This document shows, one piece after another, positions 1 to 58,190 of a stretch of DNA of 58,190 nt (positions within the stretch are counted from its first letter, which is position 1; the number at the start of each line of letters is the position of its first letter). Source of the DNA: Anaerolineales bacterium (GTDB lineage Bacteria; Chloroflexota; Anaerolineae; Promineifilales; Promineifilaceae); contig WTJY01000360.1 of assembly GCA_011524645.1 (NCBI GenBank), positions 1 through 58,190 on the forward strand. The letters run 5' to 3'. The position numbers and the translations under genes were made by a program. The notes below the pieces were generated by a model. That model had not been told where the DNA came from. It saw only the letters and a program-made list of their open reading frames with translations, and did no database searches.

Positions 1-1095
1 GCTCAAAATTGCGCGGCCGTCTCTCGCACCACACAAGAAACGATCAATGTGGCGGTCGAAGGGATCGCCTTGGGCTTTTACACGTTTACCGTCAATGATT
101 TTGCGGGCTCGTTTCCCATTGATGAACCCCGCCTAGAACGCATGGTGATCTATGCCACGGCCGAAGCGGACGCGCGAGCCACCGTCGTGGCCCAAGCGAC
201 CGCAACAGCGGACGCAGTCGCCACAAGGCAAGCCCGCGAGTTGCTCGGCGTAGGTGAAATCGGCGGAGCGATCTGGCACGATGAATGTTTATCCGTCCCC
301 GCGACAAATCAAATCTCGACGGCCGATGAAGCCCTCTCCCCGCCACCAGAAGGCTGTATCAGGCTCGACAATGGCGCAATCGTCGGGGACGGAACTTATC
401 AAGAAGCAGAACTCGGCATCCCATTTGTCACGGTAGAGCTACGTCTAGGTGCCTGCTCCGGCACCGCCGTTGTCGCCTCGACCCAAACCGATGTCAACGG
501 CCGGTTTCTCTTCACGGATGTTCTCCCCGACACATATTGTTTGACTGTGCAAAATACAGACAAAAACGAAAGCTTGCTCGCCGCAGGAATCTGGACCACG
601 GCCGGTAATACCCCCCGCTACACCCAAACGATCGATCTCAATGCGGGAGACCAAATCACCGACATCGCGCTCGGCTGGGACTATGCCACGTTACCCCGTG
701 CCGACATCGCTCAAGGCTGTATCAACAAAGGGTTTTATCTCTTCGATATCACCTATCCACCGGGGGAAACTTTCGCCGCCGGTGAGCTGGTCACCAAACA
801 ATGGCGGGTCCAAAATATCGGCACCTGCCCATGGTCCCCCGACTACGGGCTTGCCTACATCCAAAGCGATGGCACCATCGACCAAGACAATATCGTCTCA
901 CTCGGTAAAACAGTTCTCCCGAACGACACCGGAGATGTCTCCATGCGTATTCGTCTCCCGGAGCGAAGCGGCCGTTTTCGCTGGGGCTATCGTTTAGTTG
1001 ATGAAAATGGGGAAATATTTGGTGTCGGCTTAGCAGAAGACAATCCGCTTTGGTTCGATTTTACCATAGCAGAACAACAGACGAATGACGAATGA
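1..1095 (+). CDS. NBR1-Ig-like domain secreted/surface protein (5' partial)
   Basis: The frame is open from base 1, so the true start lies before the window; the GTG at 49 is only an internal codon. Three parts are visible. First comes an Ala/Thr-rich stretch around codons 50-80. Next is a transthyretin-like SdrD_B/carboxypeptidase-regulatory-type fold around codons 130-200, with VNGRFLFTDVLPDTYCLTV and paired cysteines. The last is a C-terminal Ig-like domain of the NBR1 type around codons 245-350, with KQWRVQNIGTCPW and the conserved Trp/Cys pattern. NBR1-Ig domains are common in Chloroflexota extracellular proteins and are thought to mediate binding or display. The export signal is off-window. 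The stop codon sits inside a GACGAAT tandem repeat. Exact role unknown. Confidence 0.8.
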   Translation, partial: AQNCAAVSRTTQETINVAVEGIALGFYTFTVNDFAGSFPIDEPRLERMVIYATAEADARATVVAQATATADAVATRQARELLGVGEIGGAIWHDECLSVPATNQISTADEALSPPPEGCIRLDNGAIVGDGTYQEAELGIPFVTVELRLGACSGTAVVASTQTDVNGRFLFTDVLPDTYCLTVQNTDKNESLLAAGIWTTAGNTPRYTQTIDLNAGDQITDIALGWDYATLPRADIAQGCINKGFYLFDITYPPGETFAAGELVTKQWRVQNIGTCPWSPDYGLAYIQSDGTIDQDNIVSLGKTVLPNDTGDVSMRIRLPERSGRFRWGYRLVDENGEIFGVGLAEDNPLWFDFTIAEQQTNDE

Positions 1096-1159
1096 CGAAT
1101 GGGGGTCTACGATCTGTCATTCAAACCGTAACGCATGAGTCGTCACGCCACATCTATCA

Positions 1160-1744
1160 TTATGCATTCGTATCACTCGACCATTCTTCCGCCTGCATCA
1201 CATTATTGTTTTCGTCCAGCAATTCAATTCGCTCAACATCCCAACGGCCGGCGCGTGACTCTAAAAATGCACCATTTTCAAGTGATACATGGCTCACCAT
1301 GCCATCGGCCCAAATGACACGCACGGCCATGCCGTTCAAGCTCCGGCCGTAAGCGACCGTATGGCGCGGCGGACCAAAAGGGGACTCAACCACGCTATTG
1401 CCGGTGTAAGCGGCGATAAATTCGTTGGTTTGGCAAGCCACCGATGCGGTATCATGGGTTTGCCATTGATCACCCACGATAGTCAGGTAGGCCGCCACCA
1501 AACAATATTGGCCCGCTTCATTTTGCCAACCATACAAAGCCATTTGCCCTGTCCCGAACGGTTGCTCTTGCAATGTATTGACACCCGATAAATCGACTGG
1601 GGACAAAACGGTCGTGTCATTAGCAATCGCGACTAGCGTCGCAGGTGGTTCTTGTGCGGCAGGGGTACAAGCAGCCGTGAGCCACACCAGCAAAATCGTG
1701 ATTAAAATAGTTACTTGGGGGGAGATTTTTTTGTGAGTAAACAT
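1160..1744 (-). CDS. Uncharacterised lipoprotein
   Basis: A 194-residue protein with a clear lipoprotein signal: basic N-terminus, hydrophobic stretch from about residue 10, and lipobox LTAAC with Cys26 as the lipidation site. A Thr/Pro/Ala linker follows and then a soluble domain of about 150 residues rich in Trp, Gly and acidic residues, ending in a charged tail. I do not recognise the fold. An AAGGAA Shine-Dalgarno-like sequence lies a few bases upstream of the ATG. It converges on the NBR1-Ig gene and is 300 bp from the next gene, so it is probably transcribed alone. Expected location is the outer face of the membrane. Confidence 0.75.
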   Translation of the reverse strand: MFTHKKISPQVTILITILLVWLTAACTPAAQEPPATLVAIANDTTVLSPVDLSGVNTLQEQPFGTGQMALYGWQNEAGQYCLVAAYLTIVGDQWQTHDTASVACQTNEFIAAYTGNSVVESPFGPPRHTVAYGRSLNGMAVRVIWADGMVSHVSLENGAFLESRAGRWDVERIELLDENNNVMQAEEWSSDTNA

Positions 1745-2043
1745 CTTCTTTCCTTACTTCTAGCTTTGGGGTAAATCACTCTGGCTATAAAACGACAAAA
1801 ATAGGAATGAAGTTCCAAAAGCGTACTGATATGGTAAATGTTCTACCAATTCTCAGCGTTTTCTAATTTACAGTTTCGATAGTCTGTTTTTTGCACTTTC
1901 CCTGTCGCGTAAACGGGGCGCAGGTCACAGACGCTGATTTCTCATGCAAAATCACGAACGATATAAGAATATTAAGCGTTTTAGAGGGGGAAAACCTGAC
2001 GGCCGAGCGTTGGTTAAACGTCGATAAACTGACGAAACCTACG
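1745..2043. other. Intergenic region
   Basis: About 300 bp between the lipoprotein start and the HD-domain gene end. It should hold the lipoprotein promoter, but I see no convincing -35/-10 pair. One CGGCCG copy is present near 2001. A short minus-strand open frame here (62 codons) has no family resemblance and is not called. Confidence 0.5.
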
Positions 2044-2670
2044 CTAGACATTGTTTAAGCGGTTAATTTCTTGTTGCAGGTTGTGTCGGGCCTGTTTCTC
2101 CCAGCGAGCGCGGCCGGTTTCGGTGTAGAAAATCTCGGACCGTTGTAAAAATCGCTGCAAGACTTGCACCCGGCCGTGACGATAAGTCTCGGCCTGTACC
2201 CATGCATATTCTTCTCCAATCGATTGTGTGTAATGTTGATATGCCTCTGCATCACTCCCCAGAATCGCTAAATCGGCATCGACAATGATTTGCCCAGCGA
2301 TACTTTGTGGTTGATGCGTCTTTGTGTCTAGAATCAGTGTACTAACAAGCGGTAACAAAGCGGCCAATGAAGCGAATGGGGACAAAATTTCACGCGCCCA
2401 CACAGCACTTTTTTCTTCGTTATCACTCCCCCATGGATCGTAAATAACATCATGGAACCCAATCGCGAGAAAAAGCGCATCTTGTGTCGTCCCATCACAA
2501 GGATGTTTTGCTAATAACTCAACGGCCGTTTCTCTCACATGTAAAACATGTTGCCAATTATGATAAGGTAGCCCGTTGGCATCATAGCGTGCTTGTACCG
2601 TCTGGGCACAAGCAGCTGCCTCTTGCGGCATGACTTGATACCGTTGTAGGATGTCTTCTAAGTTAAACAT
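2044..2670 (-). CDS. HD-superfamily metal-dependent phosphohydrolase-like protein
   Basis: A protein of 208 residues from the ATG at 2670; an in-frame GTG lies nine codons upstream. It shows the hallmarks of the predicted HD-type phosphohydrolase family (COG4339-like): an N-terminal YHNWQHV motif with paired histidines, then IGFHDVIYDP with the His-Asp doublet, and a later Asp in DADLAILG. Together these supply the usual divalent-metal ligands of HD domains. The substrate is unknown; family members are annotated only by similarity. No signal peptide is visible, so it is likely cytoplasmic. It has its own gap on either side and is not clearly in an operon. Confidence 0.8.
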   Translation of the reverse strand: MFNLEDILQRYQVMPQEAAACAQTVQARYDANGLPYHNWQHVLHVRETAVELLAKHPCDGTTQDALFLAIGFHDVIYDPWGSDNEEKSAVWAREILSPFASLAALLPLVSTLILDTKTHQPQSIAGQIIVDADLAILGSDAEAYQHYTQSIGEEYAWVQAETYRHGRVQVLQRFLQRSEIFYTETGRARWEKQARHNLQQEINRLNNV

Positions 2671-2751
2671 GTCACTTTGTTTTGTTATCGCTCTCACCTA
2701 CAAGCCCAAGCGGTCCCCATAGGAACGACTCTACCGCCCCACGTCCAACGA

Positions 2752-6592: not shown

Positions 6593-6735
6593 AAAGTTGC
6601 ACACCTTGCGTATAAGATCGATTAAATATGCACGGCTTTTCAATAAAATTCCTGATACTGCCGAATGCGGGTGAAACACGACAGCCGATACTCACTTAGC
6701 CACGCCAAATCCCTCTGGGTGGTGAACCGGCCGAA

Positions 6736-6944: not shown

Positions 6945-7364
6945 ATGTCCGCAATTACCGATCTAGAAAAGCTATTGGCCCACATGAAGCCAAAACTAAA
7001 TGAGGGCACATTCGTCTTTTGCACCTTCCCCAACAAAAAATATGGGGATCTTGCCGAGCTTAATCCGATCTGTGCATATATGGAAAGTGAAGGGCTCACC
7101 CTCATTTTGCCCCAACTCGAAGCCGACCGAGCCAACATCCCTTATGAAGGCCACTACAGCACCATTACCCTCCAAGTTCATTCCAGCCTCGAAGCGGTCG
7201 GTCTAACAGCGGCTGTGGCCACCCGACTCACACAACACAATATCAGTGCCAACGTTGTAGCCGCCTACTTCCACGACCATATTTTTGTCCAATCCCCATA
7301 CGCGGCCGAAGCGATCAACGCCCTCGAAAAATTGGCACAGGAATATCAGGCGAATAACGAATAA
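6945..7364 (+). CDS. ACT domain-containing protein (COG3602-like)
   Basis: A protein of 139 residues with the two-part plan of COG3602: an N-terminal half with FVFCTF, and a C-terminal ACT-like half around residues 75-135 (STITLQVHSSLEAVGL, then VVAAYFHDHIFVQ). ACT domains usually bind amino acids or other small ligands. This stand-alone form has no catalytic domain, so it is presumably a small-ligand sensor or stabiliser; its target is unknown. No signal peptide, so cytoplasmic. It is followed by a GACGAAT-type repeat and an A/C-rich spacer before the nucleotidyltransferase gene. Confidence 0.8.
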   Translation: MSAITDLEKLLAHMKPKLNEGTFVFCTFPNKKYGDLAELNPICAYMESEGLTLILPQLEADRANIPYEGHYSTITLQVHSSLEAVGLTAAVATRLTQHNISANVVAAYFHDHIFVQSPYAAEAINALEKLAQEYQANNE

Positions 7365-8261: not shown

Positions 8262-8633
8262 ATGATTACCGGTATTCAAGATGTTTATTACAATGTGAGC
8301 GACATGGCGCAGGCCGTTCGTTTCTACACTGAAGTACTCGGTTGCACCGTCAATTTTGGTAACGATTACTGGACGAGCCTCAGTGCCCACGGCATCAATC
8401 TCGGCCTACACGGCACCAACGGCCGGCCCATTCCCACCATCGACCAAGATACACACGGAGCCAATTGTGGTGCCACACTCACCTTCAAATCAGACGATTT
8501 TACGGCCGACAAAACCCACCTCGAAGCGCACAACGCCACCATCGTCAGCGAAGTCATCGCCGACTTCGGCAGCGTTCTCATTTTCAAAGACCCCGACGGC
8601 AACATCCTCAAATTAATGCAACCCAACTACTAA
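8262..8633 (+). CDS. VOC-family (glyoxalase/bleomycin-resistance fold) protein
   Basis: A 123-residue single-module VOC protein. It has the expected beta-alpha-beta-beta-beta arrangement: GIQDVYYNVSDMAQAVRFYT at the start, LGLHG and GATLTFKSDD in the middle, and FKDPDGNILKLMQ at the end, where the final Glu of many family members is replaced (NILKLM rather than NxxEL). VOC proteins use a divalent metal for glyoxalase, dioxygenase or epimerase chemistry, or bind drugs. The exact reaction cannot be read from sequence. A weak AGGAAAA sequence precedes the ATG. Confidence 0.85.
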   Translation: MITGIQDVYYNVSDMAQAVRFYTEVLGCTVNFGNDYWTSLSAHGINLGLHGTNGRPIPTIDQDTHGANCGATLTFKSDDFTADKTHLEAHNATIVSEVIADFGSVLIFKDPDGNILKLMQPNY

Positions 8634-9776: not shown

Positions 9777-12700
9777 ATGTCTATCGATTCATTTGACACC
9801 AATTACAGCCCAAACAGCCTCTACCGTCTATTTACACTCAGCACAATCCTACTTGCTCCGCTTATCTTCCTTGGAATTTTACTGGTGCAGTTCTCTCCAT
9901 CTTCGACCACGGCCGTTCAAGCTGCTGGCAATATCTACTATGTCACCACAGATGGATCAGGAAATATCTGTAGCCTCGCCAGTCCATGTCTATTAGATAC
10001 AGCAATGGGACTTGTTGTCGATAATGATGAGGTTCGAATCGCAGCTGGAGTCTACGCCAACTCTGGCTCAGAGGAAGTGATTCGTGTCAGCCACTCGATT
10101 ACGATTCATGGAGGTTTCAACCCTAGTGATTTAGCGGCCGATCCAGAACCAAGTGCTAACCCCACCATTCTAGACGCACAAGGCAACGGTCGTGTCATCT
10201 ATATCGACGGTTATGTCAACCCCGCAATTATCGGGTTCACGATTCAAAACGGGAACCTAGTTGGCTTCAGCAATGATAATCGTTTAGGTGCGGGAATTTA
10301 CAATGAGAACGGTAGACCTCTTATCCAAGACAATATAATTGACAACAACAATGCAGGGGATCGCCACGGTGGAGGTATTTTTGATGAAGGAGGCGCAACT
10401 ATCATCAACAATACCATCAAAAACAATCAAGCAGTAGCGGGTGGGGGAATCTACATCAATTTGACTACGGCTGTATCAACAACAATCAAAAATAATACGA
10501 TCTTTGACAATATCGGTTCAGAACAAGGTGGGGGAATCGCAGTTATTAAAGGTCAAAGCACCATTGAAAATAATACAATTTATGGAAATGGGGACCCCAA
10601 TAGTACTTATACAAATGATCGTTATGGTGCTATATTTGTGCAATCTGAGGGAGATGTCAATCTCTATAACAATCTTATCTATAACAACTCAGCAAATTTC
10701 GCTGGTGGCGTTGGCGTGTTGGGGACACTCACACTTTGGAACAATACTATTGTCGCCAACACATCGACAGACAATACGTCAGCAGGTGGCCTATATATCT
10801 TCTTTAACACAGCCAATGTTGATCTAAACAATACCATTCTTGCTCTCAATGAAGGGGCAACCAACTTCAGTCAATTAAGTTTAAGTACGGGAGCCTCTCT
10901 AACCGGAACCCACAACAATATCTCCGGCACCACCAATGCATCCACCAGTTTAGACAACACCCTGTTAGGCGACCCCGGCTTCATTAACCCCGACACCTTT
11001 GTGTTCGGCCTCATCACCGGTAGCCAAAACATTGACGCGGCCGCACCCACCACTCCCCCCTTCATCACCACCGACTATGAAGGGCAAGCACGGCCGAACG
11101 GCGCAGGTATCGACATCGGTGCCGATGAATATTACCCCAGCATTCCCAACCTCTCACTGACCCCAGCATCACGCAATGTTTTTGTCGAACGTGGCGAAAC
11201 GGTTAACTTTCTACATACACTTGTTAATTTAGGGACGATCAATGATGTCTACACCATTAGTTGCGCCAACCCACAAACAGACTGGGTGGTCACATGCCCC
11301 GCGCCCAATTCGATTTCATTGGCCCCAGGGGAATCGGCCGACCTCACCACGCAAGTCATCGCCCCACTCGTCGCCAATGCCTATGATCAAGGGGTAACCA
11401 TCATTACCGCCACGTCAACCGTTTCACCCGATCTCTTCGTGCGTGTTACGGCCGTGAGTACAATCGAACCCCAACCGGGCATCGAATTTAGCCCGAACTA
11501 CAGTCAAACCGCCACCCCCGGTGAAGTATTTACCCTCACTCACTTCATCACCAATACAGGAGATTCAAACGACACTTACATCGTTACCCTTCTCACAGAA
11601 GAAAACACAGCCTCATGGGGAGAAGTTGTTCCGGCCGATGGCTTTAGTCTCGAAATCCCCTCCGGCTCCACCCGCGCTGTCCAAGTTCGGATCACAGTTG
11701 CCCCCAATGCAGCCGCAGGTATCCGCAATCTCGTCAAAATCCAAGCCACCTCTAGCTTTACGAATGTAGTAAGTGCCATCGTCACCGACACAATCACCGC
11801 ACGTGCGACAGCAGGTACCCGCTACGTCAGCCCCACACCCGGGCCAGACACCCCGCCCGAAGAAGAAAACAACTGTACCCAGTCTGCCACCCCTTGCCAA
11901 AGCGTCGAACACGCAGTGGGGCAAGCCTCATTCGGCGACGCCATATTAATCCAAGCCGGAACCTATGAAGAATCGACGATCGCCCTAAATGACTCGCTCG
12001 ACATTTCAGGTGGCTGGACAACCGATTTCGCCACCCAACGTGAAAACACCACCACAATTCTCGATGCCAATGGGAATAGTGGGGGCATTTTTAATATCGG
12101 TAGCGGTAGCAGTATACAGCCGACCATTAGTAACCTAACCCTACAAAACGGGAGCGCAAACAGCGGTGGTGCCGTGAATATCGGCTCTAACGCCCAACCG
12201 GTTCTCACCAACATCCGTTTTATTAACAATACAGCCAACAGTGGTGGTGCAATCTATGCGGACCCCAATTCAGTTGTAGAGGTAATCAAAGGGGATTTTG
12301 TCGGCAATGACAGTACCGCCAACGATGGTGGTGGGGCTGTTTATGTCGAAAATGCGGCCGTTTCGATCCTACAATCAACGTTTTTAACCAACACCTCTCA
12401 AAACGGGAATGGTGGCGCGATTTACCACAACCTCGGTTTTCTTGAGGTAAAAAACAGCCTGTTCATGTCAAATACCTCTGGCATCCACGGGGGGGCGATT
12501 TATATCGAAAATGATTCAATCAATACAGAAATCGACAGCAATACGATCATTAGTAATGTCGCGGCCGTGAACGGGGGAGCGATCTATAACGATGCCGGTG
12601 TAGTCGAAATTCGTAACACAAATTTTGACCACAACACCGCCACGGGTGGCTCAGGCAGTGCGGTCTATCAGCTCGCCAGCTCAGGCAGCACCTCGATCAA

Positions 12701-15700
12701 CTACTCAAACTTGTGGCCCAATGGCCCAGCCGAAGCGATTAACACCACCTTCGGCTCTAACAACCTCCAAACAAACCCAGGTTATGCTGATAGCAAACTC
12801 CGTCTCACAACCGAATCCCCCCTGTTAGACAAAGGGGACCCCACCACTAGATTAGTGGTCGACTTTGAAGATGATAGTCGGCCGGCCGATCAAGGGTTCG
12901 ACATCGGCTACGATGAATTAGCCGGTTGTCGCGCCAAACGAGGTGACACAACATTTGGCAGTATTCAAGAAGCGATCGCTTATGATGAAAGTGGCACAAC
13001 CCTAATTCAGGTGGCAGGTGTCTGCCGTGGCGTCGGAACCGATATCATCAATGGGGAAACGCTTAGCCAAACCGTCTATTTGACTAAATCAATGACAATT
13101 CAAGGGGGGTGGACCAGCGATTTTTCAGATCGTACAAAACAACTCACACTTGTAAATCCTCAAGGGTTCGGCCGTGCCTTTTATATCAATGGAGACATCG
13201 ATGTCGTCATCGAAGGGCTCCGGTTCGATAACGGGGATGCAACCGGTCTTGGCGGTGGCATAAGTAATGCAGACGCAGGTGGATCGATCTATGTAGCCAA
13301 CGGCACACTCACTCTAAACGAGATGCTGTTCTACACCAACACAGCCGATATAGGAGCCGCCGTTTATTTCTCTAATACAACTGACTCCTTAATCAGTAAT
13401 AGCGAATTCCACATTAACAAAGCGACTACGGCCGGTGGTGCCATCTACGCCCATAGCGGGGACTTCATTGTCCAAGGTGGCGAATTCGCCAACAACAACG
13501 CGCCAAATGGTGGGGCTATCTACAACCGAGAAGCAGAGATAACGATTGAAAACTTATTTGTCGGGGGCTTTGCGAACCCAACCCATCTACATGAAAACAC
13601 AGCTCTTGACGGGGGCGCGATCTATAATCTCAATGGCCTTTTAGACGTAGATAGTGCGCGCATCTATGAAAATAGTGCCACCACAAGCGGGGGAGCACTC
13701 TACAATAGTGGGCCGATTACCATGGTGAATACGGTCATCTTCTCGAATACAGCCAATCTCGGAGCGGGAATCTATCACAATCTCCCCAGCGGAGACGCTT
13801 TTTACTACCACACCAACTTTATTAGCAACACCGCCACAACCTCTGGCGGGGGCTTTTACAATGCCGGTGTGAGCGACCCTACGATTCGTAGCTCAATCTT
13901 TGAAGGCAACGCGGCCGCCAATCCAGGTGCAGCCATTTTTGCCGAGAATGCAGGCGCAGATTTAGATTATAATTTTTACGCCTATCAAACAACAGCCGAT
14001 GTCTCTGGCGATACAAAAGGGGCCAATAGCATCACAAATAGCCAAGGTTCAGGCTTAGTTAGTCAGGGAATCGACCCTAAACTTGACGATGACGGGCTCG
14101 CCGTTGATGCAGGGGACCCACAATCTCCGATTGTAACCGACTACGAAGGTGGGCTCCGGCCATCTAGCCAAGCCCACGATATCGGAGCGGATGAAGTCGA
14201 GAATTGTTTGGTTCAACTCAACGGAGTGGTCTATGGGAGTATCCAACTCGCTTTACATGATGCGACAGAAGGGGACACGTTACGAGTATCTGGGATTTGT
14301 AGCGGTGTCCATGATGTCGATGTCTCCCTCATCGCCGATGCCGGCTCGTGTGGCGGCACCAACTTCCAAGCCACAACCCATCTAACCAAATCGGTCACCC
14401 TTCAAGGGGGCTGGAAAGCGGACTTTTCTGAACAAGTCGCCACCGCCATCCTCGACGCGGAACAGCTCGGCCGTGCACTCTATGTCGGCCCCAATATCAC
14501 CGTCACCATCGAAAGCATGAGCCTGATCAATGGGAACGTCCCAACCAGTGTCGGTGCAGGTCTCTGTGTCGATGCAGGCAGTCGAGTAACAGTTAAACAA
14601 AGCCAAATCTACAGCAATACAGCCCAAACCGGCTCGGCCGTTTACGGTGAAAACAACGCCGTGACCATTAATGGAAACCATATCTTTAGCAACACCACAA
14701 CCGCCAATGGGACGATTCACTTTGTCACCTCCAGCGGTACGATGAGCAGTACTGTAGAAAACAACTATTTCTATCGCAATACAGCGGCCAATGGTGGCGC
14801 CTTCTACAACGCCAGTGGCGAGCATAAATTCTGGCACAATACCGTTTATGATAATTTCGCCACCAATGGTGCAGGGGTCTATATCGCCACCGGCTTACCT
14901 GTTATTCGTAGCAATGTCTTCCTCAGTAATACAGCATCATCCGGTGCCGATGGGATTCATCGCGTGGGCGGCACGCCAACACTAGGCTACAACAACTTCT
15001 ATGGTCAAACGACCGACAACTTCGGGGTTACCAGTTCTTCCGGCAATATCTTTGCCGATCCGGAATACACCGATCCAAAACAATTTGATTTCACATTCCC
15101 CATTACATCCCCCATTAAAGACACGGCCGATCCCGCGATTTTAACCACAGTCGATATCGATAACGATATTCGGCCGTCTCATCTTGGCCCCGATATGGGT
15201 GCGGATGAAATCGGAGGGTGCTATGCACGGGCGTTATCTGATCCCGCGACCATATATGGTGGCGTCATTTACGCCTATCAAGCGGAACCGGCCGGAGGAA
15301 TCATTCAAGTCTCCGGTATTTGTAAAGGGGCAAAAGTTAATGGTTTAACCACACAACATCTTTATGTTGATAAAGAAATCACTATTGATGGGAATTGGAA
15401 CTTTAATAACGCAGGACTGGGCGTAATTGATGCGGTGGGAACCGGTCGGGCCATCTATGTCGGCAACAGTGGCGACCTCACAACCAACTTACTAACCGTT
15501 CGTAATGGCGATGCCTCTAACGCCGGTGGCGGCACCACTTACGGTGGAAATATCTACAATGAAGGGTTTCTAACCATCAAAAACGAGTCGCTTATCGCCA
15601 ACGGCACGGCCGAGCGTGGTGGTGGCATTTACAACGATGGCACCCTCTCTATGACCCTCAGCTATGTCCGTAACAACGAAGCGGAGCTTGGTGGTGGCAT

Positions 15701-41782: not shown

Positions 41783-41911
41783 AATCGGAAACAACTTTAC
41801 ACAAAGTTCTTAGACCACATTGGACCAAGATAGACATAGAGGAATCATCTCTACAAAGGCTCATCCCTATCTCTATCACTCGTCTCTATCGCTTTCCTTC
41901 TACGAAAGCTT
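41783..41911. repeat. MITE-like repeat, copy C
   Basis: Third member of the element family seen at 52984-53111 and 56134-56251. It shares ATCGGAAACAA near its left end, an AGATAGA segment, then the CTCATCCCTATCTCTATC / CTCGTCTCTATCGCTTT region, ending in GAAAGCTT. The left terminal repeat is eroded. It fills the murD-mraY spacer right up to the mraY stop codon. Confidence 0.6.
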
Positions 41912-41912
41912 A

Positions 41913-42896
41913 TTAAATCAGCGCCAATGAAATGCCGATCATCGCGCCTAAAACACTAATCAACCACCAGCGTTGCACAATCTGGGTTTCACTCCAACCC
42001 AACAGCTCGAAATGATGATGAAGCGGTGCCATCCGAAATAATCGTTTGCCACCAGTCATTTTGAAATAGCTAACCTGTAAAGTCACTGACAAGGTTGTAG
42101 CCACCGGAATAATGCCGATAATCGGCAAAATCAACCATTGATTGGTCATGAGAGCCACAACCGCCAACAATCCGCCTAAGGCTTGGGAACCGACATCACC
42201 CATAAACATTTGGGCCGGTTTGGCGTTATACCACAAGAAAGCGAAACAACCGCCAACCGTGGTAAAACAAAGCACGACTAGAAATTGCTGGTCCTGCATA
42301 AAAGCGATAATGCCGTAAGCCAGAAACGCCGAAGAGGTTGTTAGTCCCGCTAAACCGTCTAAGCCATCGACCAAATTAACCGCATTGGACACGCCGGTAA
42401 TGATAAATGCAGCGACCGGAATAAAAAATATCCCTAGATTGAGCAAGACCGGCACGGTGGGAACCGCGACCAAGCCTCGCTGTTCATTCACGACATAAAG
42501 CGCAACAGAAGCGACAAGCGCGATACCGACTTGATACCAAATCTTGTGCCGCGCCAACATGCCAACACCCGGCCGTGTGCGAAACCCTTGATAGTCATCA
42601 ATCCCACCCAATATCGAGTAGGCCAACATAACCCCCAAGGGAATAATGACGCTTTCGGCGATTTCTAAATTTTGCAGAATCGAAACCCCATTGACCATCA
42701 AACTACTAATCAGCACCCAACCAACAATCAAAATGCCCCCCATAGCGGGAGTCCCCATCTTGGTCATGTGAGATTGAGGTCCATCAATGCGAATGTTTTT
42801 GCCCATTTTCAGACGACGCATCAATTCAACAAATGGGCTTCCCCAAATGAGGGCCATCAAAAATGTGACTGTACCGACAGTGATTGCAAATACCAT
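41913..42896 (-). CDS. mraY: Phospho-N-acetylmuramoyl-pentapeptide transferase MraY
   Basis: A 327-residue integral membrane enzyme (about ten helices) transferring phospho-MurNAc-pentapeptide to undecaprenyl phosphate to form lipid I. Catalytic motifs: DDYQGFRTRPG (the DD pair), NAVNLVDGLDGLAGLTT, FMGDVGSQALGG, and the cytoplasmic His loop MAPLHHHFELLGWSE. RIDGPQSHMTKMGTPAMGGIL near the N-terminus is also typical. Normal length. Lies between murF and murD. Confidence 0.96.
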   Translation of the reverse strand: MVFAITVGTVTFLMALIWGSPFVELMRRLKMGKNIRIDGPQSHMTKMGTPAMGGILIVGWVLISSLMVNGVSILQNLEIAESVIIPLGVMLAYSILGGIDDYQGFRTRPGVGMLARHKIWYQVGIALVASVALYVVNEQRGLVAVPTVPVLLNLGIFFIPVAAFIITGVSNAVNLVDGLDGLAGLTTSSAFLAYGIIAFMQDQQFLVVLCFTTVGGCFAFLWYNAKPAQMFMGDVGSQALGGLLAVVALMTNQWLILPIIGIIPVATTLSVTLQVSYFKMTGGKRLFRMAPLHHHFELLGWSETQIVQRWWLISVLGAMIGISLALI

Positions 42897-42905
42897 AGTT
42901 ATCTA

Positions 42906-42970
42906 GAAAGTATGGGAAATGAAGCATAGCGCATGAACCGATTTTCATACGTCATACTTCATATTTCATA
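42906..42970. repeat. AGTATG/CATACT inverted-repeat element
   Basis: AGTATGGGAAATGAAG near 42909 is the imperfect complement of CATACTTCATATTTCATA near 42953. A related, larger element lies at 47856-47985. Both sit in dcw spacers. No coding potential. Confidence 0.5.
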
Positions 42971-42973
42971 TTT

Positions 42974-44398
42974 TTATACCTGCCCTTTCAAGCGAGAAAG
43001 CGCGGTTACGATACGATCCATTCGCGCCCCGAACGACCCTTTTACCAAAATAATATCATTCGCGGTGATTTGTGCTTGCAAAAGTTCGGTCGCTTCGGCC
43101 GTGGTCTCACAAATAAATACGGCCGTTTCAGCCATGCCCGCTTCTAGTGCTTCTTCGGCGATAATCCGGCCACGCTGTCCAACAGCAACCAATAAATCGG
43201 CCACAGCCATCGCCCGACGGCCGACCAGTCGATGGGAAATCTCTTCGGCGGAACCCAATTCCAGCATGTCACCCAACACGGCGATACGGCGACCATCTAA
43301 ATCGTCTAACAAATTTAACGCCGCAATGACTGAATCGGGACTCGCGTTATAGGTGTCGTCTAAAATCAGCGAGTTATAGGGGCCGCGAACCGTCACCAAC
43401 CGCAATTGAGCTTGTTGACCACGTAACCCGCGAAAAATTTCAGTCCAATTCAAATCGAAATTCAGCGCAATCGCAGCCGCCCGTAAACAGGTATGGACGC
43501 TATGGCGACCCAATAAGGGGACCGAAACGGGCCAAGACTCGCCTCGATAGTGGAAAATAAAGCGAATGCCTTCCATTCCCATCGATTGAATGTCACTCGC
43601 CCATAAATCGGCCGAGTCGGTCAATCCATAAGTAAACAACTGCGCGGCCGTGTGATCCGCCATGCTCATCACACGCGCATCATCTTGGTTCAAAATCGCA
43701 ATGCCATCCGGCATCAGTGATTCGACCAATTCTCGTTTCGCTTCCACAATCGCTTCTACACTGCCCAAACGGGACATATGGACCGGACCGATATTGGTCA
43801 CAACCCCCATTTGCGGCCGAGCGATATCACACAACAAAGCGATTTCCCCTTTATCGTACATCCCCATTTCCAGCACCGCATGGGTATAGTCACCCGTTAA
43901 TTGCAGGACCGTCAAAGGTAGTCCGATTTCATTGTTGTAATTTTTAGGTGTCTTGAGCGTAACAAATCGTTCCGACACAACGGCATGGGCCAACTCTTTG
44001 GTTGATGTCTTGCCCACGCTGCCGGTAATCCCCACGATTTTTATGTCGCTCAATAGGGATCGCCAATAGCGGGCCACGTCTTGTAGCGCACGTTCGGTGT
44101 TTTCGACCACAATACAAAACGGCCGACTCGGGTCAAAACCGGCCGGAACCTGCCCATCGACGATTTGCATATCGGCCAAGCTGAGCGGCCGTTCGAGCAA
44201 CGCCAAGCACGCCCCCGCCGCAAACGCGGCTGAAACATAGTTATGCCCATCAGCCTGCTCGCCAACAAACGCCACAAACACATCACCAGCCCCGACTTCA
44301 CGGCTGTCAATTTGCACTCGCTCAACCGATGGTTCCAAGCCCGTCAACTCATAGCCATCAATCAATGCGCTTAAAAAATGTCCTACAGATAACTTCAT
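42974..44398 (-). CDS. murF: UDP-N-acetylmuramoyl-tripeptide--D-alanyl-D-alanine ligase MurF
   Basis: A 474-residue cytoplasmic ATP-dependent ligase adding D-Ala-D-Ala to the UDP-MurNAc-tripeptide. The N-terminal domain has VQIDSREVGAGDVFVAFVGE; GITGSVGKTSTKELAH is the P-loop; LEMGMYDKGEIALLCDIARP and ILDDTYNASPDSVIAALNLL are diagnostic for MurF and distinguish it from MurE. ALGD-like VLGDMLELG follows. Next gene after ftsI, where many clusters have murE in between; no murE is in this window. Confidence 0.95.
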   Translation of the reverse strand: MKLSVGHFLSALIDGYELTGLEPSVERVQIDSREVGAGDVFVAFVGEQADGHNYVSAAFAAGACLALLERPLSLADMQIVDGQVPAGFDPSRPFCIVVENTERALQDVARYWRSLLSDIKIVGITGSVGKTSTKELAHAVVSERFVTLKTPKNYNNEIGLPLTVLQLTGDYTHAVLEMGMYDKGEIALLCDIARPQMGVVTNIGPVHMSRLGSVEAIVEAKRELVESLMPDGIAILNQDDARVMSMADHTAAQLFTYGLTDSADLWASDIQSMGMEGIRFIFHYRGESWPVSVPLLGRHSVHTCLRAAAIALNFDLNWTEIFRGLRGQQAQLRLVTVRGPYNSLILDDTYNASPDSVIAALNLLDDLDGRRIAVLGDMLELGSAEEISHRLVGRRAMAVADLLVAVGQRGRIIAEEALEAGMAETAVFICETTAEATELLQAQITANDIILVKGSFGARMDRIVTALSRLKGQV

Positions 44399-44447
44399 AT
44401 TACTTCGCTATTCAGTCTACTCGTCACTCGTCGTTCGTCTCTCATCC

Positions 44448-46151
44448 CTACTCTTCTTCCGCTCTCGCCGCCATAATGTCCGCCTTTAAACGAATCGTGT
44501 CTGGGGGAATATCCAACAAGACAACTAGTTCATTCGCTAGTTCCGCAAATGTTGGCGCGGCCGTTTCTGATCCCCAAGGTGAAACGGTCGGCCGGTCAAG
44601 TTTAATCAGGACAGCTACCTCTGGCGCATCGGCCGGTAGCCATCCAACAAAAGAGGCGATCGTATCGGTCGGATGATAAATCCCGTTTTCCGGAATCTGC
44701 GCTGTTCCCGTTTTCCCCGCAACTGTGTAGCCGGGCAATTGCGCCCGCCAAAGCTGGGTATTAATCGCATACACCGCCATCGCGCTCACTTGCTGGGCCG
44801 CTTCGGCCGAAACCGGCCGGCTTAAAACCTTGGGGTCATGGACAAAAACATCATCCCCAGCATGAATCTCTTGCACCACATATGGCTGCATCAAATACCC
44901 ATCGTTCGCTAACGCCGAAACCGCCGAAATCATTTGCAACGGGGTAACACTCATCCCCTGCCCAAAGGAATTGGTCGCCAAAGATGATTCTGTCCAATAG
45001 GCACTACCGGGCAAATGCATCTGACCCGCCCCTTCCGCCAGCAATTCAATACCGGTCCGCCTGCCAAAGCCGAACCGTTCCATATAGTTATAAAACGTAT
45101 CTGTCCCTGTTTCGACCGCCAGATGGGTCGCCCCGACATTCAAAGAGCGAGCGATCAATGTCTTCATATCGGTATCGCCGGGGCCACTTTTATCAGAGTT
45201 ATAAACCCGAGCCCCACCCAATTCATAAACGCCCGAATCATAGTAGGTCGATTGTGGGGAGACAGTCCCTGAATCAAGCGCGGCCGCCATTGTAACCAAC
45301 TTCATGACAGAACCCGGTTCGTAAAGCTGAGTCACACTCGGGTTGATGAGCAAATCAGCCTCTGTTTCAAAATAACGATACGGGTCATAACATGGATGGT
45401 TGGCCATCGCCAAAATCGCCCCCGTCTTAGGGTCCATCACGATAATGGTTCCCCCTTCAGCCCCATACGCCCGCACAGCTCGCGCTAAATGTTCTTCAAC
45501 CAAATATTGCACCGAACGATCGATCGTTAACACCAAATCGACCCCTTCCCGAGCTAACACCGTTTCTTGCTCTTCTAGTGGCGAAATGTTGACATAGGCA
45601 CTCGCCATCTCCCCCGCTAAATCAGCTTGATAAAACCCTTCCAAGCCGCTTCCCCCAACATTATCAAGATCGGTATACCCAAGGGTATGACAAAGCAATT
45701 CCCCTTGTGGATAAATGCGGCGTGGCAAACTATCGATCTGAATCCCATCATAATCCAACGCACGGATCGCGTCCGCTATATCGCTAGACACACGGGTTGA
45801 AAGCAAAACAAACGGCAAGCGGGATTCAAGCTGCGCTAGAATTTCATAGCGAGGCACTTGTAGAATCGGGGCCAATGCGGTGGCCGCTTCGGCCGGTGCG
45901 ACCACCAAAGATGGAGAGGCGCCAATTTGATAATCAGCCCCGTTGGCGGCCAGTACCGCATGGTTCCGATCATAAATCAAACCGCGATCCGGCCGTGCAA
46001 TGACCTCCAAAACCTGCGTATCACGCCCTCGTTCTTCCCATTGGCTACCTTGTAATAGCTGAAAAACGACCAAACGGCCGCTAATCACCAATGTTATTCC
46101 TATTAAACCGGCAATGACAAACCAAAGACGGCCGTTTTGATTGGTATTCAT
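44448..46151 (-). CDS. ftsI: Class B penicillin-binding protein FtsI/PBP2-type
   Basis: A 567-residue septal transpeptidase cross-linking peptidoglycan with FtsW. One N-terminal membrane helix (about 10-30) is followed by the dimerisation domain (RPDRGLIYDRNHAVLAANG). The transpeptidase domain has YEPGSVMKLV (active Ser near 282), SLN near 335 and KTGTAQIP near 480. No PASTA repeats at the C-terminus. Six bases downstream of the ftsL-like gene, so translationally linked. The position after rsmH-ftsL identifies it as the division PBP rather than an elongation one. Confidence 0.94.
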   Translation of the reverse strand: MNTNQNGRLWFVIAGLIGITLVISGRLVVFQLLQGSQWEERGRDTQVLEVIARPDRGLIYDRNHAVLAANGADYQIGASPSLVVAPAEAATALAPILQVPRYEILAQLESRLPFVLLSTRVSSDIADAIRALDYDGIQIDSLPRRIYPQGELLCHTLGYTDLDNVGGSGLEGFYQADLAGEMASAYVNISPLEEQETVLAREGVDLVLTIDRSVQYLVEEHLARAVRAYGAEGGTIIVMDPKTGAILAMANHPCYDPYRYFETEADLLINPSVTQLYEPGSVMKLVTMAAALDSGTVSPQSTYYDSGVYELGGARVYNSDKSGPGDTDMKTLIARSLNVGATHLAVETGTDTFYNYMERFGFGRRTGIELLAEGAGQMHLPGSAYWTESSLATNSFGQGMSVTPLQMISAVSALANDGYLMQPYVVQEIHAGDDVFVHDPKVLSRPVSAEAAQQVSAMAVYAINTQLWRAQLPGYTVAGKTGTAQIPENGIYHPTDTIASFVGWLPADAPEVAVLIKLDRPTVSPWGSETAAPTFAELANELVVLLDIPPDTIRLKADIMAARAEEE

Positions 46152-46157
46152 ATCGCC

Positions 46158-46850
46158 TTACTCACTCGTCCCAGAAGTCAAGCCACGTACGACTTGATCA
46201 ATTTCCAACTGCAACGCTTCACGAAAGGTGTCGATCGGCACGGCTGTAGGGGTCGGTTCAGGGGTAAACACCTCAACCTCGACCACTTCGGCCGGATAAT
46301 CGGGCACCACAACATAATCAATATCTTCGGGGTCTGCTAAGACAAATCCCATTTGTTCCGCCCGCGTCTGCAAATAATCAAGCGTTTGTGCCTCCGCAAT
46401 CAAACGCTCCATTTGCCCATTTTCTCGCTTTAAATCGGCTAGATCATTTTGCAAAATTTGCACCCGTCGGCCGATTTCCGCCATACGACTCGCCTGAGCC
46501 AAATAAATCGTTCCGATTAGCGTACCGACGACTAAAATAATCCCCCAACCGAGCGCAACCTGTGCTTCAGACAGCTTTAGGAAACGGCGAATTTGCCCGC
46601 GCCAGCGGGGCAACGATTCACGCCATAGATCACGGGTTCCTTGTGTTGTCGTTTCCGGTTGTGGGTCACTTTCGACAGCCTCTTCGTCAGTCGTCTCTAT
46701 TTCTTCTATTGATTCGCTTTCGGGTTCGCTTTCATCGCGTGTATCAATAGGTAACGAGCCCGAAGAAATCACACGTGGGGTGGTCTCTTCAGCGGCCGTT
46801 TCTTCAACGTCTTCCGGCTGTTCGTCCTCATTAGGTATGTCTTCCATCAT
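46158..46850 (-). CDS. FtsL/DivIC-like septum protein
   Basis: A 230-residue bitopic protein. An unusually long acidic cytoplasmic N-terminus (about 75 residues, mostly Glu, Asp, Ser, Thr, Pro) and a basic RRFLKLS patch precede a single membrane helix (about 97-118). A coiled coil with heptad-like spacing (MAEIGRRVQILQNDLADLKR and following) comes next, then a short beta region and a Pro-Thr linker. The position between rsmH and ftsI and the helix-plus-coiled-coil plan are those of FtsL, but the YLQTRAEQMGFV segment also matches the DivIC/FtsB family, so I leave the symbol blank. Confidence 0.8.
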   Translation of the reverse strand: MMEDIPNEDEQPEDVEETAAEETTPRVISSGSLPIDTRDESEPESESIEEIETTDEEAVESDPQPETTTQGTRDLWRESLPRWRGQIRRFLKLSEAQVALGWGIILVVGTLIGTIYLAQASRMAEIGRRVQILQNDLADLKRENGQMERLIAEAQTLDYLQTRAEQMGFVLADPEDIDYVVVPDYPAEVVEVEVFTPEPTPTAVPIDTFREALQLEIDQVVRGLTSGTSE

Positions 46851-46859
46851 GAGATTGGT

Positions 46860-47798
46860 CTACTTATCCTCAGCTTTCTTGGCAATTTTTTCCGCCACAC
46901 GGAGCTTCGCACTCCGACTACGTGGATTCGCGGCAACTTCGGCCGCGCTAGGGGCGAGCGGTTTACGGGTAATTCGCTTCAACACGATATGGCTCTCATC
47001 GACATGTAACACATGGCTGGGCACATTGTAATAAGGGTCGCTTAATTCCCGCATAAAATGTTTTACGATCCGGTCTTCAAGCGAGTGGAAGCTAATAATC
47101 GCCAAACGGCCGCCCGGCCGAAGCAGATCCACGGCTGCGCGTAGCCCGCGTTCTAGCTCGTCCAACTCCCCATTGACCGCAATGCGTAGTGCTTGAAAAA
47201 TCTTGGTAGCGGGATGAATCTTTTTCTTGCCCCGAGGCAATTTAACCACCCGCTTGATAAGGTCCGCCAGCTCTTTCGTGGTATAAAGTGGCCGGTTTTC
47301 CACGATGATACGGGCCAACTTACGGCTCAATCGCTCCTCCCCATAGCGAAAGAAAATATCCGCCAGTTCATCGGCCGACCAGCTATTGATCAAGTGCGCG
47401 GCCGTTTTCGTCTGGCGCATGTCAAACCGCATATCGAGTGGGGCATCGTACCGAAAAGAAAATCCCCGCTCGGGGTTATCCAACTGGCGCGAAGACAAGC
47501 CCAGATCCATCAAAATACCGTCAACCTGAGCAAATCCTTTTTGCGGCGCCACCTCCCCCATCGAGCCATAGCTGGCATGGGCAAAACGAACTTGCTCCCC
47601 ATAATCAATCAGTTGTTTACTGGCAAAATCGATCGCTTCGGCATCCCAATCAAACGCCAGCACGCGGCCGCCTCGCTCCATAATACCGGCCGTATGCCCC
47701 CCAGCACCCAACGTTCCATCAATGTAAAGTAGGTTTTCGCGTATGTTTAGCGCATCTAGCGCTTCTTCATATAAGACGGAAATGTGTTCGTTGGTCAT
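46860..47798 (-). CDS. rsmH: 16S rRNA (cytosine1402-N4)-methyltransferase RsmH
   Basis: A 312-residue SAM-dependent methyltransferase (MraW) acting on C1402 of 16S rRNA. HISVLYEEALDAL at the start, DGTLGAGGHTAGIM as the SAM loop, FDWDAEAIDFA for the ribose-binding acidic residue, GILMDLGLSSRQLDNPERGF, and later IISFHSLEDRIVKHFM, all highly conserved in RsmH. Normal length. Standard second gene of dcw clusters, 9 bp before the ftsL-like gene and 193 bp after mraZ. Confidence 0.97.
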   Translation of the reverse strand: MTNEHISVLYEEALDALNIRENLLYIDGTLGAGGHTAGIMERGGRVLAFDWDAEAIDFASKQLIDYGEQVRFAHASYGSMGEVAPQKGFAQVDGILMDLGLSSRQLDNPERGFSFRYDAPLDMRFDMRQTKTAAHLINSWSADELADIFFRYGEERLSRKLARIIVENRPLYTTKELADLIKRVVKLPRGKKKIHPATKIFQALRIAVNGELDELERGLRAAVDLLRPGGRLAIISFHSLEDRIVKHFMRELSDPYYNVPSHVLHVDESHIVLKRITRKPLAPSAAEVAANPRSRSAKLRVAEKIAKKAEDK

Positions 47799-47855
47799 GA
47801 GAAAGCAAAAAAACTTGAGAAATGAAAAATAAATAACGGCCGTATAAATACCAAA

Positions 47856-47985
47856 GTATGATTGATGAAATATGAAAAAAAAGGTCCACCTGCAATCCGA
47901 CTTGCAAAGATGAGTTCATACTTCACATCCCATACTTTATATTTTTTCAAATTCGGACATTTTTATATTTCATATTCCTGAGGGT
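47856..47985. repeat. AGTATG-type repeat element in the mraZ-rsmH gap
   Basis: AGTATGATTGATGAAATATG near 47861 and, in the other direction, CATACTTCACATCCCATAC near 47921 and TTTATATTTCATATTCC near 47962 give several GAAATATGAAA-type words in both orientations. Similar to the element at 42906-42970. One CGGCCG copy (about 47838) lies just beside it. Confidence 0.45.
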
Positions 47986-47991
47986 TTCGTT

Positions 47992-48417
47992 CTAGATCCC
48001 TAGATCACCCCAGCGTGTCGCATCGTCATTGTTTTCGATGCTCTCTTTAATTTTGGCCCACTCGCTCGTCGACCAAATTTCGAGCGAGCTAAACATCCCC
48101 GCGATAACTACTTCGCCCTCAATACCAGCGAATTCGCGTAAATAAGCAGGAATCAAAATTCTTCCTTGGCGATCCGGTTCAATATCAACCGCACCAGAAA
48201 AAACGCGCCGACGGAAATCACGAACCCGCTGATCAGAGATCGGCCGAGCCAAAATATCTTTTGCCACCGCTTTCCATTCTTCCATGGGATAAACAGCCAA
48301 ATTGCGATCAAGCCCACGTGTCACGACCAAACCGGCCGCCAACTCCCCACGAAACTTCGCGGGGACAGTAAGCCGACCTTTATCATCAATGGTGTGGGTA
48401 TATTCGCCAAGAAACAT
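47992..48417 (-). CDS. mraZ: Transcriptional regulator MraZ
   Basis: A 141-residue AbrB-fold protein with two DxxxR-type half-domains: MFLGEYTHTIDDKGRLTVPA at the start and VDIEPDRQGRILIPAYLREF in the second half, both with the DNA-contacting Asp-x-x-Gly-Arg pattern. The ATG at 48417 gives the conserved start; the frame runs on 44 codons upstream, but that part overlaps the promoter and boxes and is not coding. MraZ rings bind repeated GTGGG boxes in their own promoter and repress the dcw cluster; four such boxes are present at 48501-48540. Confidence 0.95.
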   Translation of the reverse strand: MFLGEYTHTIDDKGRLTVPAKFRGELAAGLVVTRGLDRNLAVYPMEEWKAVAKDILARPISDQRVRDFRRRVFSGAVDIEPDRQGRILIPAYLREFAGIEGEVVIAGMFSSLEIWSTSEWAKIKESIENNDDATRWGDLGI

Positions 48418-48500
48418 GTGTTTTCGCTTGCAGAGAAATAGAACATTTGTTTCAAATCCCCCATTTGGGATCAATTTTGGAGCCAAAGTTCGGTTTTTCG

Positions 48501-48540
48501 CCCCACTTTGTCCCACTTTTCTCCACTTTTCCCCCAAAGT
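48501..48540 (-). promoter_or_regulatory. Four MraZ boxes at 10-bp period
   Basis: On the minus strand four consecutive 10-mers begin TTGGG/GTGG-like: 48540-48531 (ACTTTGGGGG), then 48530-48521, 48520-48511 and 48510-48501, with GTGGA, GTGGG and GTGGGG cores spaced exactly 10 bp. This matches the known MraZ operator of repeated TGGG(N) boxes on one helix face. The array covers the predicted start point of the dcw transcript, fitting repression by MraZ. Confidence 0.85.
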
Positions 48541-48566
48541 ATACAACAAACCCCAAGCAGTGTGAA
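48538..48566 (-). promoter_or_regulatory. dcw (mraZ) promoter
   Basis: TTCACA (48566-48561), 17-bp spacer, TATACT (48543-48538) on the minus strand, one mismatch each from the sigma-70-type consensus. Transcription from about 48531 falls within the first MraZ boxes and leaves a leader of about 115 bases before the mraZ ATG. Confidence 0.75.
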
Positions 48567-51188: not shown

Positions 51189-51419
51189 CTACACTCTTTT
51201 ATCTGAATCAATTTGAATGCCCAGCAAACCCGCCTCTTGACGGAGTCGGCTTTCTGTCGCTTCCCGTTCACGCTTCGCCTCTTCAAAGACTTGATCGATC
51301 CGGCCGCGTACCTCTTTCTGCATTTGTTCTCCAGATGCCGGTGTATATAGTAGAGCCAACACAGCCCCAACAGCCAAACCACACAAAATCCCGACCCAAA
51401 AACTCATTAATTTCTTCAT
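51189..51419 (-). CDS. YtxH-domain small membrane protein
   Basis: A 76-residue protein with one N-terminal glycine-rich membrane helix (FWVGILCGLAVGAVLALL), then the YtxH hallmark YTPASGEQMQKEVRGRIDQV and a charged helix to the end. YtxH proteins are small general-stress-related membrane proteins of unknown mechanism. A single-gene unit converging on the M42 peptidase; a TATAAT lies upstream at 51465-51470. Confidence 0.85.
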   Translation of the reverse strand: MKKLMSFWVGILCGLAVGAVLALLYTPASGEQMQKEVRGRIDQVFEEAKREREATESRLRQEAGLLGIQIDSDKRV

Positions 51420-57427: not shown

Positions 57428-57477
57428 GGCATTTCCGTTTTATCTAATATCACAAATCCCTTTACTGGAGGAATTTT

Positions 57478-57888
57478 ATGGAGACATTCATAACAATCAT
57501 TCGCGAATCACACTCAGGGGTTCGCTGGCTTGTTGTTTTACTGGGATTGATCATCATCATCAAACATAGCATCGGCTGGGCGATGAAAAGTGAGTACAGC
57601 GCGCTAGACCGGCGCTTGGTCTCGATCTTTTCTGCGGTCTTCGGCATTCAATTTTTGCTAGGCTTGTTGATGACTGTCTTATATCTGATCACCGGCCGTT
57701 TTGTCATGGCCACCAGCGGGGCACATCTCGTCATCATGCTCATCGCCTTCTTCGTCGCGATGCGCACCTCAAAATGGAAAAACGCGGAGGGGGTGATTCC
57801 GTTTCGGAACAATGTCATCGCCTTAGTTATTGCTGGGTTGTTAATCTACGTCGGCGTTCTCGGACTTCCTGTAGGCTGGTCAATTTAA
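57478..57888 (+). CDS. Four-helix membrane protein of unknown function
   Basis: A 136-residue protein with four hydrophobic helices and histidines in HSGVRWLVVLLGL (near 12), KHSIGWA (30) and AHLVIMLIAFF (about 82). This is a layout reminiscent of small heme-binding or quinone-linked membrane proteins, though no family is recognised with certainty. GGAGG precedes the ATG at good spacing. It follows the tail-anchored epimerase by 50 bp and is closed by a strong terminator. Confidence 0.75.
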   Translation: METFITIIRESHSGVRWLVVLLGLIIIIKHSIGWAMKSEYSALDRRLVSIFSAVFGIQFLLGLLMTVLYLITGRFVMATSGAHLVIMLIAFFVAMRTSKWKNAEGVIPFRNNVIALVIAGLLIYVGVLGLPVGWSI

Positions 57889-57890
57889 GC

Positions 57891-57941
57891 AAAAAATCCC
57901 GCTTCGTGGCTATCCGCATAAACCACAAAGCGGGATTTTTT
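57891..57941. terminator. Bidirectional intrinsic terminator
   Basis: A 19-base near-perfect stem (57891-57909 with about 57923-57941, one mismatch) whose outer ends are A6 and T6, so it can stop transcription from both sides. It lies between the convergent 57478 gene (plus) and the membrane protein at the right edge (minus). Confidence 0.9.
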
Positions 57942-57956
57942 ATGATCTGACGACCA

Positions 57957-58190
57957 CTATCCGATCTGGTAGGAAGCCAAACGGGATTCCAGCCAATCCT
58001 TGGCATATCGCTGATACCAAACGGCCGAGAAAATAATCAGTAATCCGACAAGGGCCAAACCAAATGTGAAGCCTAGCACACCAAGTAACGTAAACGCGAA
58101 GTAACATACATAACCATATATCCCAATCGCACCAAACACCAGAAAAACACGCCGTTGTAACCAAACACTTCCTACCACAAACAGCAAATA
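57957..58190 (-). CDS. Multi-pass membrane protein, C-terminal part (5' end beyond the window)
   Basis: The frame is open to the right edge of the window, so only the last 77 codons are seen. It contains three hydrophobic stretches (VVGSVWLQRRVFLVFGAIGI, YVCYFAFTLLGVLGFTFG, LALVGLLIIFSAVWYQRY) and a short charged cytoplasmic tail. Resembles the final helices of large uncharacterised bacterial membrane proteins; family not assigned. Confidence 0.65.
   Translation of the reverse strand, partial: YLLFVVGSVWLQRRVFLVFGAIGIYGYVCYFAFTLLGVLGFTFGLALVGLLIIFSAVWYQRYAKDWLESRLASYQIG

Follow-up and report, generated by a model that had tools for sequence, protein, structure and literature searches.

What sustains a six-base palindrome at 215 copies in a single bacterial contig? 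The contig in question, WTJY01000360.1 of an Anaerolineales bacterium (assembly GCA_011524645.1; 58,190 bases, analysed whole and here termed the window), contains CGGCCG far more often than the 12.0, 20.5, 34 or 59 times expected under models of order 0, 1, 2 and 3, respectively, the word being the top over-represented 6-mer under both the order-1 and the order-3 models. The explanation favoured here, at slightly under even confidence, is that CGGCCG forms the core of a highly iterated palindrome (HIP), similar to HIP1 of cyanobacteria, in an order of Chloroflexota, and is upheld by molecular drive (biased repair) acting on all DNA of the cell.

Abundance and specificity

An earlier note on this DNA, made from the letters alone, had described CGGCCG as about twenty-fold over-represented, occurring every 150–300 bp in genes of both strands, in all codon frames and in spacers. 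The over-representation is real, with a mean spacing of 271 bp and with 40, 125 and 39 sites in codon phases 0, 1 and 2 (genes of both strands) and 11 in spacers; the twenty-fold figure holds against base composition (18x), but genome-wide falls to ~14x once the motif is masked from the background model, as determined for an own-genome sample (stretches L007–L026, 339 kb; 1141 CGGCCG versus 80–84 expected). The whole genome (5.81 Mb) contains 19,906 copies, one per 292 bp, compared with 768 of the reversed word GCCGGC, and is thus not near expectation. Nor is enrichment shared by every GGCC-containing hexamer: the remaining NGGCCN words in the sample reach at most ~1.2x their masked expectation (GGGCCC, 0.25x; AGGCCT, 0.45x; TGGCCA, 0.80x). 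A general GC or GGCC excess is ruled out, because none of these control words clearly exceeds its expectation, some falling below it, and CCGCGG hardly occurs.

Synonymous-codon shuffling within genes of the same sample yields 164 ± 12 CGGCCG versus 1026 observed, with a similar excess in every codon phase (6.1–6.4x), and the spacers carry 1.9 CGGCCG per kb versus 0.05 per kb for GCCGGC. CGGCCG is the only strong palindrome outlier in the sample, CGATCG (the inner hexamer of HIP1) being no strong outlier; the commonest decay product in the genome is the C4-to-T one-off CGGTCG/CGACCG (1.59x). Several other words are depleted, with CCGCGG nearly missing (none in the window; 3 versus ~85 expected in 339 kb) and CCCGGG, GGATCC, GGGCCC and CCWGG-containing words strongly avoided in the window or own-genome sample, as expected from restriction pressure; CGGCCG, accumulated instead of avoided in both, does not behave as a restriction target. 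Mild over-representation was observed for the palindromes ACCGGT (1.85x) and ATCGAT (1.4x).

Distribution and lineage-specific dialects

The core is common to ~50 related genomes (families f1 and f2), nearly all of the 56 genomes of the order being enriched, and it ranks first among palindromes in 20-kb samples from every genome except G012, G014 and G053. The order is probably Promineifilales, which NCBI taxonomy places with Ardenticatenales within the class Ardenticatenia of Chloroflexota. No CGGCCG enrichment was found in the 12 other sampled families of the class or in most named Anaerolineales-type loci. A literature search, with most subscription journals outside its coverage, yielded no previous description of a HIP from Chloroflexota.

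The earlier note was blind to one feature: CGGCCG sits at the centre of lineage-specific 8-mers. The flanked forms, differing by lineage, are ACGGCCGT, TCGGCCGA and GCGGCCGC, with no set flank in the window's genome, and the bases adjoining the core are fixed in most genera: in g36, g5 and g2, ~60% of sites take the form ACGGCCGT, G010 and G046 mostly carry TCGGCCGA (89% T flank) and G017 mostly GCGGCCGC (91% G flank), while no flank is required in the window's genus, g4, G020 and f2. In a 250-genome sample of the phylum (genomes up to 8.3 Mb), more than ~500 copies of ACGGCCGT occur only in the window's genome and in its family member G007 (646), and the remaining genomes of that sample do not share the core. 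The palindrome has been swapped altogether in G014, where 14 ACGGCCGT are found against 3665 TGCCGGCA, by contrast with 15,176 and 183 in G043. Comparison of the window with its relatives was made over its conserved division and cell-wall gene cluster (Table 1), and in a tree derived from eleven proteins of cell division and the cell wall the flankless form is basal in the order and ACGGCCGT occupies one large clade, with reversion to the flankless form in g4 and loss in G053, the other dialects lying on separate branches. A weak preference for A in the window's genome would fit mixed or ancestral flanks. G017 displays extreme avoidance of GCCGGC (51 copies in 8 Mb), its dominant iterated palindrome being GCGGCCGC (NotI).

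Saturation of permissive positions and effects on proteins

Among ACGGCCGT species, Thr-Ala-Val is coded ACG GCC GTN in 705 of 734 instances (96%; ~16% predicted by codon usage), and [Tyr/His/Asn/Asp]-Gly-Arg is coded NAC GGC CGT in 396 of 443 (~5% predicted). Proteins are altered to fit the palindrome, as shown by six-fold enrichment of the Thr-Ala-Val tripeptide (712 versus 118 expected), the permutations of which are at expectation, and by enrichment of Ser-Ala-Asp/Glu in its place in TCGGCCGA genomes (40 versus 7.8 expected). In the window's genome, CGGCCG occupies 1050 of the 1746 positions at which the amino acids permit it (60%, versus 5–8% expected). Filling is almost binomially uniform from gene to gene (overdispersion 1.12), and site spacing is Poisson-like (coefficient of variation, CV, 0.99–1.02) with a mild shortage of very short gaps, leading to rejection of any fixed spacing or periodicity.

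Noncoding DNA is enriched 144-fold in ACGGCCGT (197 versus 1.4 expected; pooled log odds 4.97), with log odds of 4.5–5.5 in most coding frames and genera. One-off words of ACGGCCGT in coding DNA are found at 1.8–6.3x expectation when they differ at position 1, most inner variants being at or below 1.5x. A single bias of ~100–200 : 1 (log 4.5–5.5) describes both the loss rate in ACGGCCGT lineages and how far codon frames, spacers and phage-like sequences are filled, the corresponding bias in the window's genome being ~20 : 1 (log ~3).

Conservation at synonymous sites

Substitutions were followed in sets of three species, a pair of relatives plus an outgroup, aligned by codon, with codon, position, neighbour and synonymy as the conditioning variables of the model. 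Within CGGCCG, 72 losses were observed versus 205 expected, the suppressed classes including more than C-to-T, and control hexamers mostly gave ratios of 0.6–1.7. Suppression resides in the flanked form: at ACGGCCGT, 12 core changes were seen versus 136 expected and 1 flank change versus 76 expected, while CGGCCG without the flank pair in the same genomes decays near-neutrally (60 changes versus 68 expected). Under another conditioning, synonymous ACGGCCGT losses number 13 versus 211 expected. ACGGCCGT is retained at 87–99% of sites in pairs 83–95% identical, versus 23–67% expected for eight independent bases.

The palindrome in phage-like and other mobile DNA

A viral contig collection scanned for three close copies of the palindrome yielded five contigs saturated with ACGGCCGT, including the phage contig IMGVR_UViG_3300048592_001391 (terminase, portal, head morphogenesis and major head protein genes; 70 ACGGCCGT in 21 kb) and two contigs, L306 and L321, that have 2.5–3.7 ACGGCCGT per kb, encode FtsK-like and partition (ParA-like, actin-like) proteins and may be plasmids or phage-plasmids from these bacteria. 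Judged by their motif, the saturated contigs would belong to these hosts in phage, prophage or plasmid form. Contigs resembling phages or mobile genetic elements carry 3.0 sites per kb versus 0.9–2.2 in hosts, with log odds of 5.2 in noncoding and 5.5–6.7 in coding DNA (~4.5–5.5 in host genomes). The bias seems to belong to the host cell and not to the chromosome, because these contigs match or slightly exceed the host log odds, whereas phages with homologous head or portal proteins are nearly free of CGGCCG (0–5 copies in 5–21 kb). Contigs matching the TCGGCCGA and TGCCGGCA dialects were found at low counts, not clearly above chance, and were not used.

Methyltransferase and repair gene families

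Across the 56 genomes of the order, the palindrome has no conserved companion among the cytosine methyltransferase, Vsr and DndE families. C5-methyltransferases (PF00145) are present in 26 and PF01555 matches above cut-off in 45; neither family has a match in G003 (94% complete, 25,568 CGGCCG) or G066, and G044 (97% complete), G048 (95%), G006 and G065 lack PF00145 and have only weak PF01555 matches (E 6e-5 to 5e-4), with modest PF01555 matches only in G022, G057 and G064. G014 (62% complete), bearing the swapped palindrome, has no C5-methyltransferase and eight PF01555 matches of unassigned specificity. These absences are to be read with the caveats that single assemblies are incomplete and that enzyme families outside PF00145 and PF01555 are possible. 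In flankless genomes only cytosine marks are possible, because the six-base core contains no A. N4-cytosine methyltransferases were rejected as the driver, PF01555 being patchy and missing in G003.

The window's genome itself has six C5-methyltransferase matches. One of these, P0001 (L001:1366-2427, minus strand), is a Dcm-superfamily C5-methyltransferase encoded between dnaE and a sulfotransferase-like gene with no nuclease gene near; the avoidance of CCWGG would fit a Dcm-like specificity. P0001 was rejected as an orphan driver of the HIP type, because nothing in its own genus exceeds 54% identity to it and the C5 family is patchily distributed. Vsr (8 of the 56 genomes) and DndE (3 of the 56) were likewise rejected as drivers, neither being conserved across motif-bearing genomes; phosphorothioate (Dnd) modification at GGCC is unsupported.

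Weighing the explanations

Molecular drive is what we infer from these observations. A sequence-specific, probably dimeric, DNA-binding or nicking protein would bias mismatch repair or conversion toward the palindrome, with palindrome-creating mutations retained and palindrome-breaking ones reverted, the ratio being ~100–200 : 1 for ACGGCCGT lineages and lower, ~20 : 1, for the window's genome. Such a bias would act on any DNA residing in the cell, shifts in the outer-base specificity of the protein would generate the dialects, and single sites would need no function of their own. A molecular bias is preferred to site-by-site selection because host and virus, with differing population sizes, show one strength, and site-specific function is disfavoured because it predicts between-site variation and regular spacing. 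A repair signal is also the best fit among the roles listed in the earlier note. A wider proposition is advanced more tentatively: that an undescribed, methylation-independent, sequence-directed repair or self-marking system rewrites chromosomes, plasmids and phages to near-full palindrome saturation, altering proteins, with a specificity that evolves as dialects, HIP1 being one case of a wider bacterial palindrome drive.

Several points weigh against drive by biased repair. No responsible protein has been identified among the methyltransferase, Vsr and DndE families examined; suppression is weaker for non-synonymous ACGGCCGT losses (6 versus 21.5 expected) than for synonymous ones, contrary to expectation under a pure repair bias, although numbers are small; gains of the 8-mer (1 versus 0.2 expected) offer scant material; and the substitution data derive from ACGGCCGT relatives and not from the window's own genus, where there is no close pair. 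A uniform selective or uptake drive may be at work instead, given that its expected loss ratio is nearly identical, uniform selection (2Ns ~5) giving 0.034 and the observed value being 0.061 (Poisson range ~0.033–0.105).

Of the rivals, a self-tag or DNA-uptake signal, the latter among the roles listed in the earlier note, deserves most attention, though it is rather unlikely: the palindrome would mark self DNA for transformation, in the manner of DNA uptake sequences (DUS, USS), or for nuclease protection, in the manner of Chi, spreading by selection or biased uptake with dialects as species labels. Lineage dialects around a fixed core do resemble the DUS dialects of Neisseriaceae (PMC3630211), and the phage-like contigs are richer than the hosts, as if bound to carry the host tag. 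Against this, spacing is no more even than random and nearly all permissive positions are filled, at 1.5–3.4 per kb, when extra tags would be useless once each fragment is tagged. The palindromy of the word also sets it apart, the known uptake signals and Chi being, to our knowledge, non-palindromic. The earlier note's suggestion of chromosome organisation, in the form of a site bound by an abundant sequence-specific nucleoid protein and selected at every position, accords with strong synonymous-site conservation and with wide conservation over the order, but is improbable; random spacing, equal saturation of genes and spacers, denser phage- and plasmid-like contigs and amino-acid-changing enrichment are better explained by position-independent filling.

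A similarly low probability is assigned to the methyltransferase-linked HIP proposed for cyanobacteria, in which mismatch repair is guided by a solitary cytosine methyltransferase specific for the core (Elhai 2015), and with it to the methyltransferase target listed in the earlier note. That paper (PMC4390886) reports a predicted cognate methyltransferase alongside HIP1 and the alternate HIPs, and states that all HIP-bearing cyanobacterial genomes have an enzyme predicted to recognise part of the palindrome; the nuclease-free C5-methyltransferase beside dnaE and the predominance of the C4-to-T decay product would also suit this explanation. Standing against it are the restriction of PF00145 to under half of the genomes, the two that lack both families, the limitation of flankless genomes to cytosine methylation, and the absence of close P0001 relatives within its genus. 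That codon or amino-acid preference, binning or assembly produced the signal as a by-product can be practically discounted, the GC-richness of the word and nothing further speaking for it, in the face of the synonymous shuffling, the noncoding enrichment, the control hexamers, and a signal present within single contigs of ~50 independently assembled genomes and in viral contigs.

Comparison with known systems

HIP1 (GCGATCGC) resembles the present word: it too is a GC-rich palindrome, built of a 6-bp core plus outer bases and found in genes and spacers, and HIP1 variants with other outer bases exist (TCGATCGA; PMC4390886). The earlier note's description of a DNA-level, HIP1-like signal is borne out by frame independence, order-wide occurrence, conservation at synonymous sites and near-saturation as in cyanobacterial HIP1. 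In a comparison sample of five 50-kb stretches (L299–L303) taken from four cyanobacterial plasmids, Ala-Ile-Ala is spelled by HIP1 in 53–89% of cases (2–7% expected) and is up to five-fold enriched; no description of this near-saturation or enrichment was met in the available part of the HIP1 paper (PMC4390886). The two differ in sequence and phylum, in density (up to 3.4 sites per kb in Chloroflexota versus 0.3–1.1 in the cyanobacterial samples), in the lack of a conserved cytosine methyltransferase in the Chloroflexota order, and in the fixation of dialects in whole clades.

With the HIP class (Elhai 2015), CGGCCG shares GC-richness, palindromy, strong genome-wide outlier status, presence in coding and noncoding DNA, frame independence, and one-off words deviating mostly at outer positions; the methyltransferase association, reported for the class but not definitional, does not extend to several near-complete motif-bearing genomes without a good PF00145 or PF01555 match. 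It is not HIP1 proper, on sequence. We file the Chloroflexota case as the HIP kind in another form, the palindrome and HIP1 working alike. Alternate HIPs of single cyanobacteria (GGCGCC, rCCGGy, GCsGC, GGGATCCC) provide a parallel to the wholesale palindrome replacement in G014, although theirs come with a matching methyltransferase in Elhai's account, whereas G014 has no C5-methyltransferase match. DUS and USS are likewise short words accumulated by drive with lineage dialects; they differ in being non-palindromic and in standing at ~1 per kb, the palindrome being near-saturated and randomly spaced. Dcm/Vsr very short patch repair is similar in its repair bias raising the frequency of a recognition word, and differs in the scarcity of Vsr here and in C-to-T not being the sole suppressed loss class.

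HIP1 has been unexplained for about thirty years, its methyltransferase link being a correlation within one phylum. The independent case in a second phylum permits a direct test of the methyltransferase explanation: its dialects are fixed by clade, the motif has been swapped in one genome and lost elsewhere, some genomes lack cytosine-methyltransferase families, and phage contigs share the bias. If the drive is real, a DNA-level process would partly determine codon and even amino-acid choice, which would bear on analyses of codon usage, of the ratio of non-synonymous to synonymous substitution rates (dN/dS) and of protein evolution. Dialects would also provide a practical label by which phages and plasmids could be matched to hosts.

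Features of the window

Table 1. Location of CGGCCG sites, site-rich and site-free regions, and conserved genes in the window
Feature	Coordinates	Strand	Detail
All CGGCCG sites	1..58190	.	215 copies; first at 14, last at 58022
Repeat protein gene	9777..23519	+	4580 aa; 45 CGGCCG at 91 permissive positions
Largest gap without CGGCCG	23517..25989	.	2479 bp between sites at 23511 and 25990
Division and cell-wall cluster	29306..48549	-	ftsZ, ftsA, ddl, murB, murC, murG, ftsW, murD, mraY, murF, mraW, mraZ-like
murD, densest gene	40375..41751	-	13 CGGCCG at 20 amino-acid-permissive positions; 9.4 per kb
CGGCCG outside annotated genes	14..19	.	
Spacer CGGCCG	2000..2005	.	
Spacer CGGCCG	6728..6733	.	
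Spacer CGGCCG	7303..7308	.	
Spacer CGGCCG	8420..8425	.	
Spacer CGGCCG	8503..8508	.	
Spacer CGGCCG	29228..29233	.	
Spacer CGGCCG	47837..47842	.	
Spacer CGGCCG	51301..51306	.	
Spacer CGGCCG	57693..57698	.	
Spacer CGGCCG	58022..58027	.	

The site-free gap consists mostly of an ATPase-like gene (24168-25592) with 2 permissive positions, neither of them filled. The 4580-aa frame preceding it features repeated domains like those of secreted or surface proteins with beta-helix and DUF11-like repeats.

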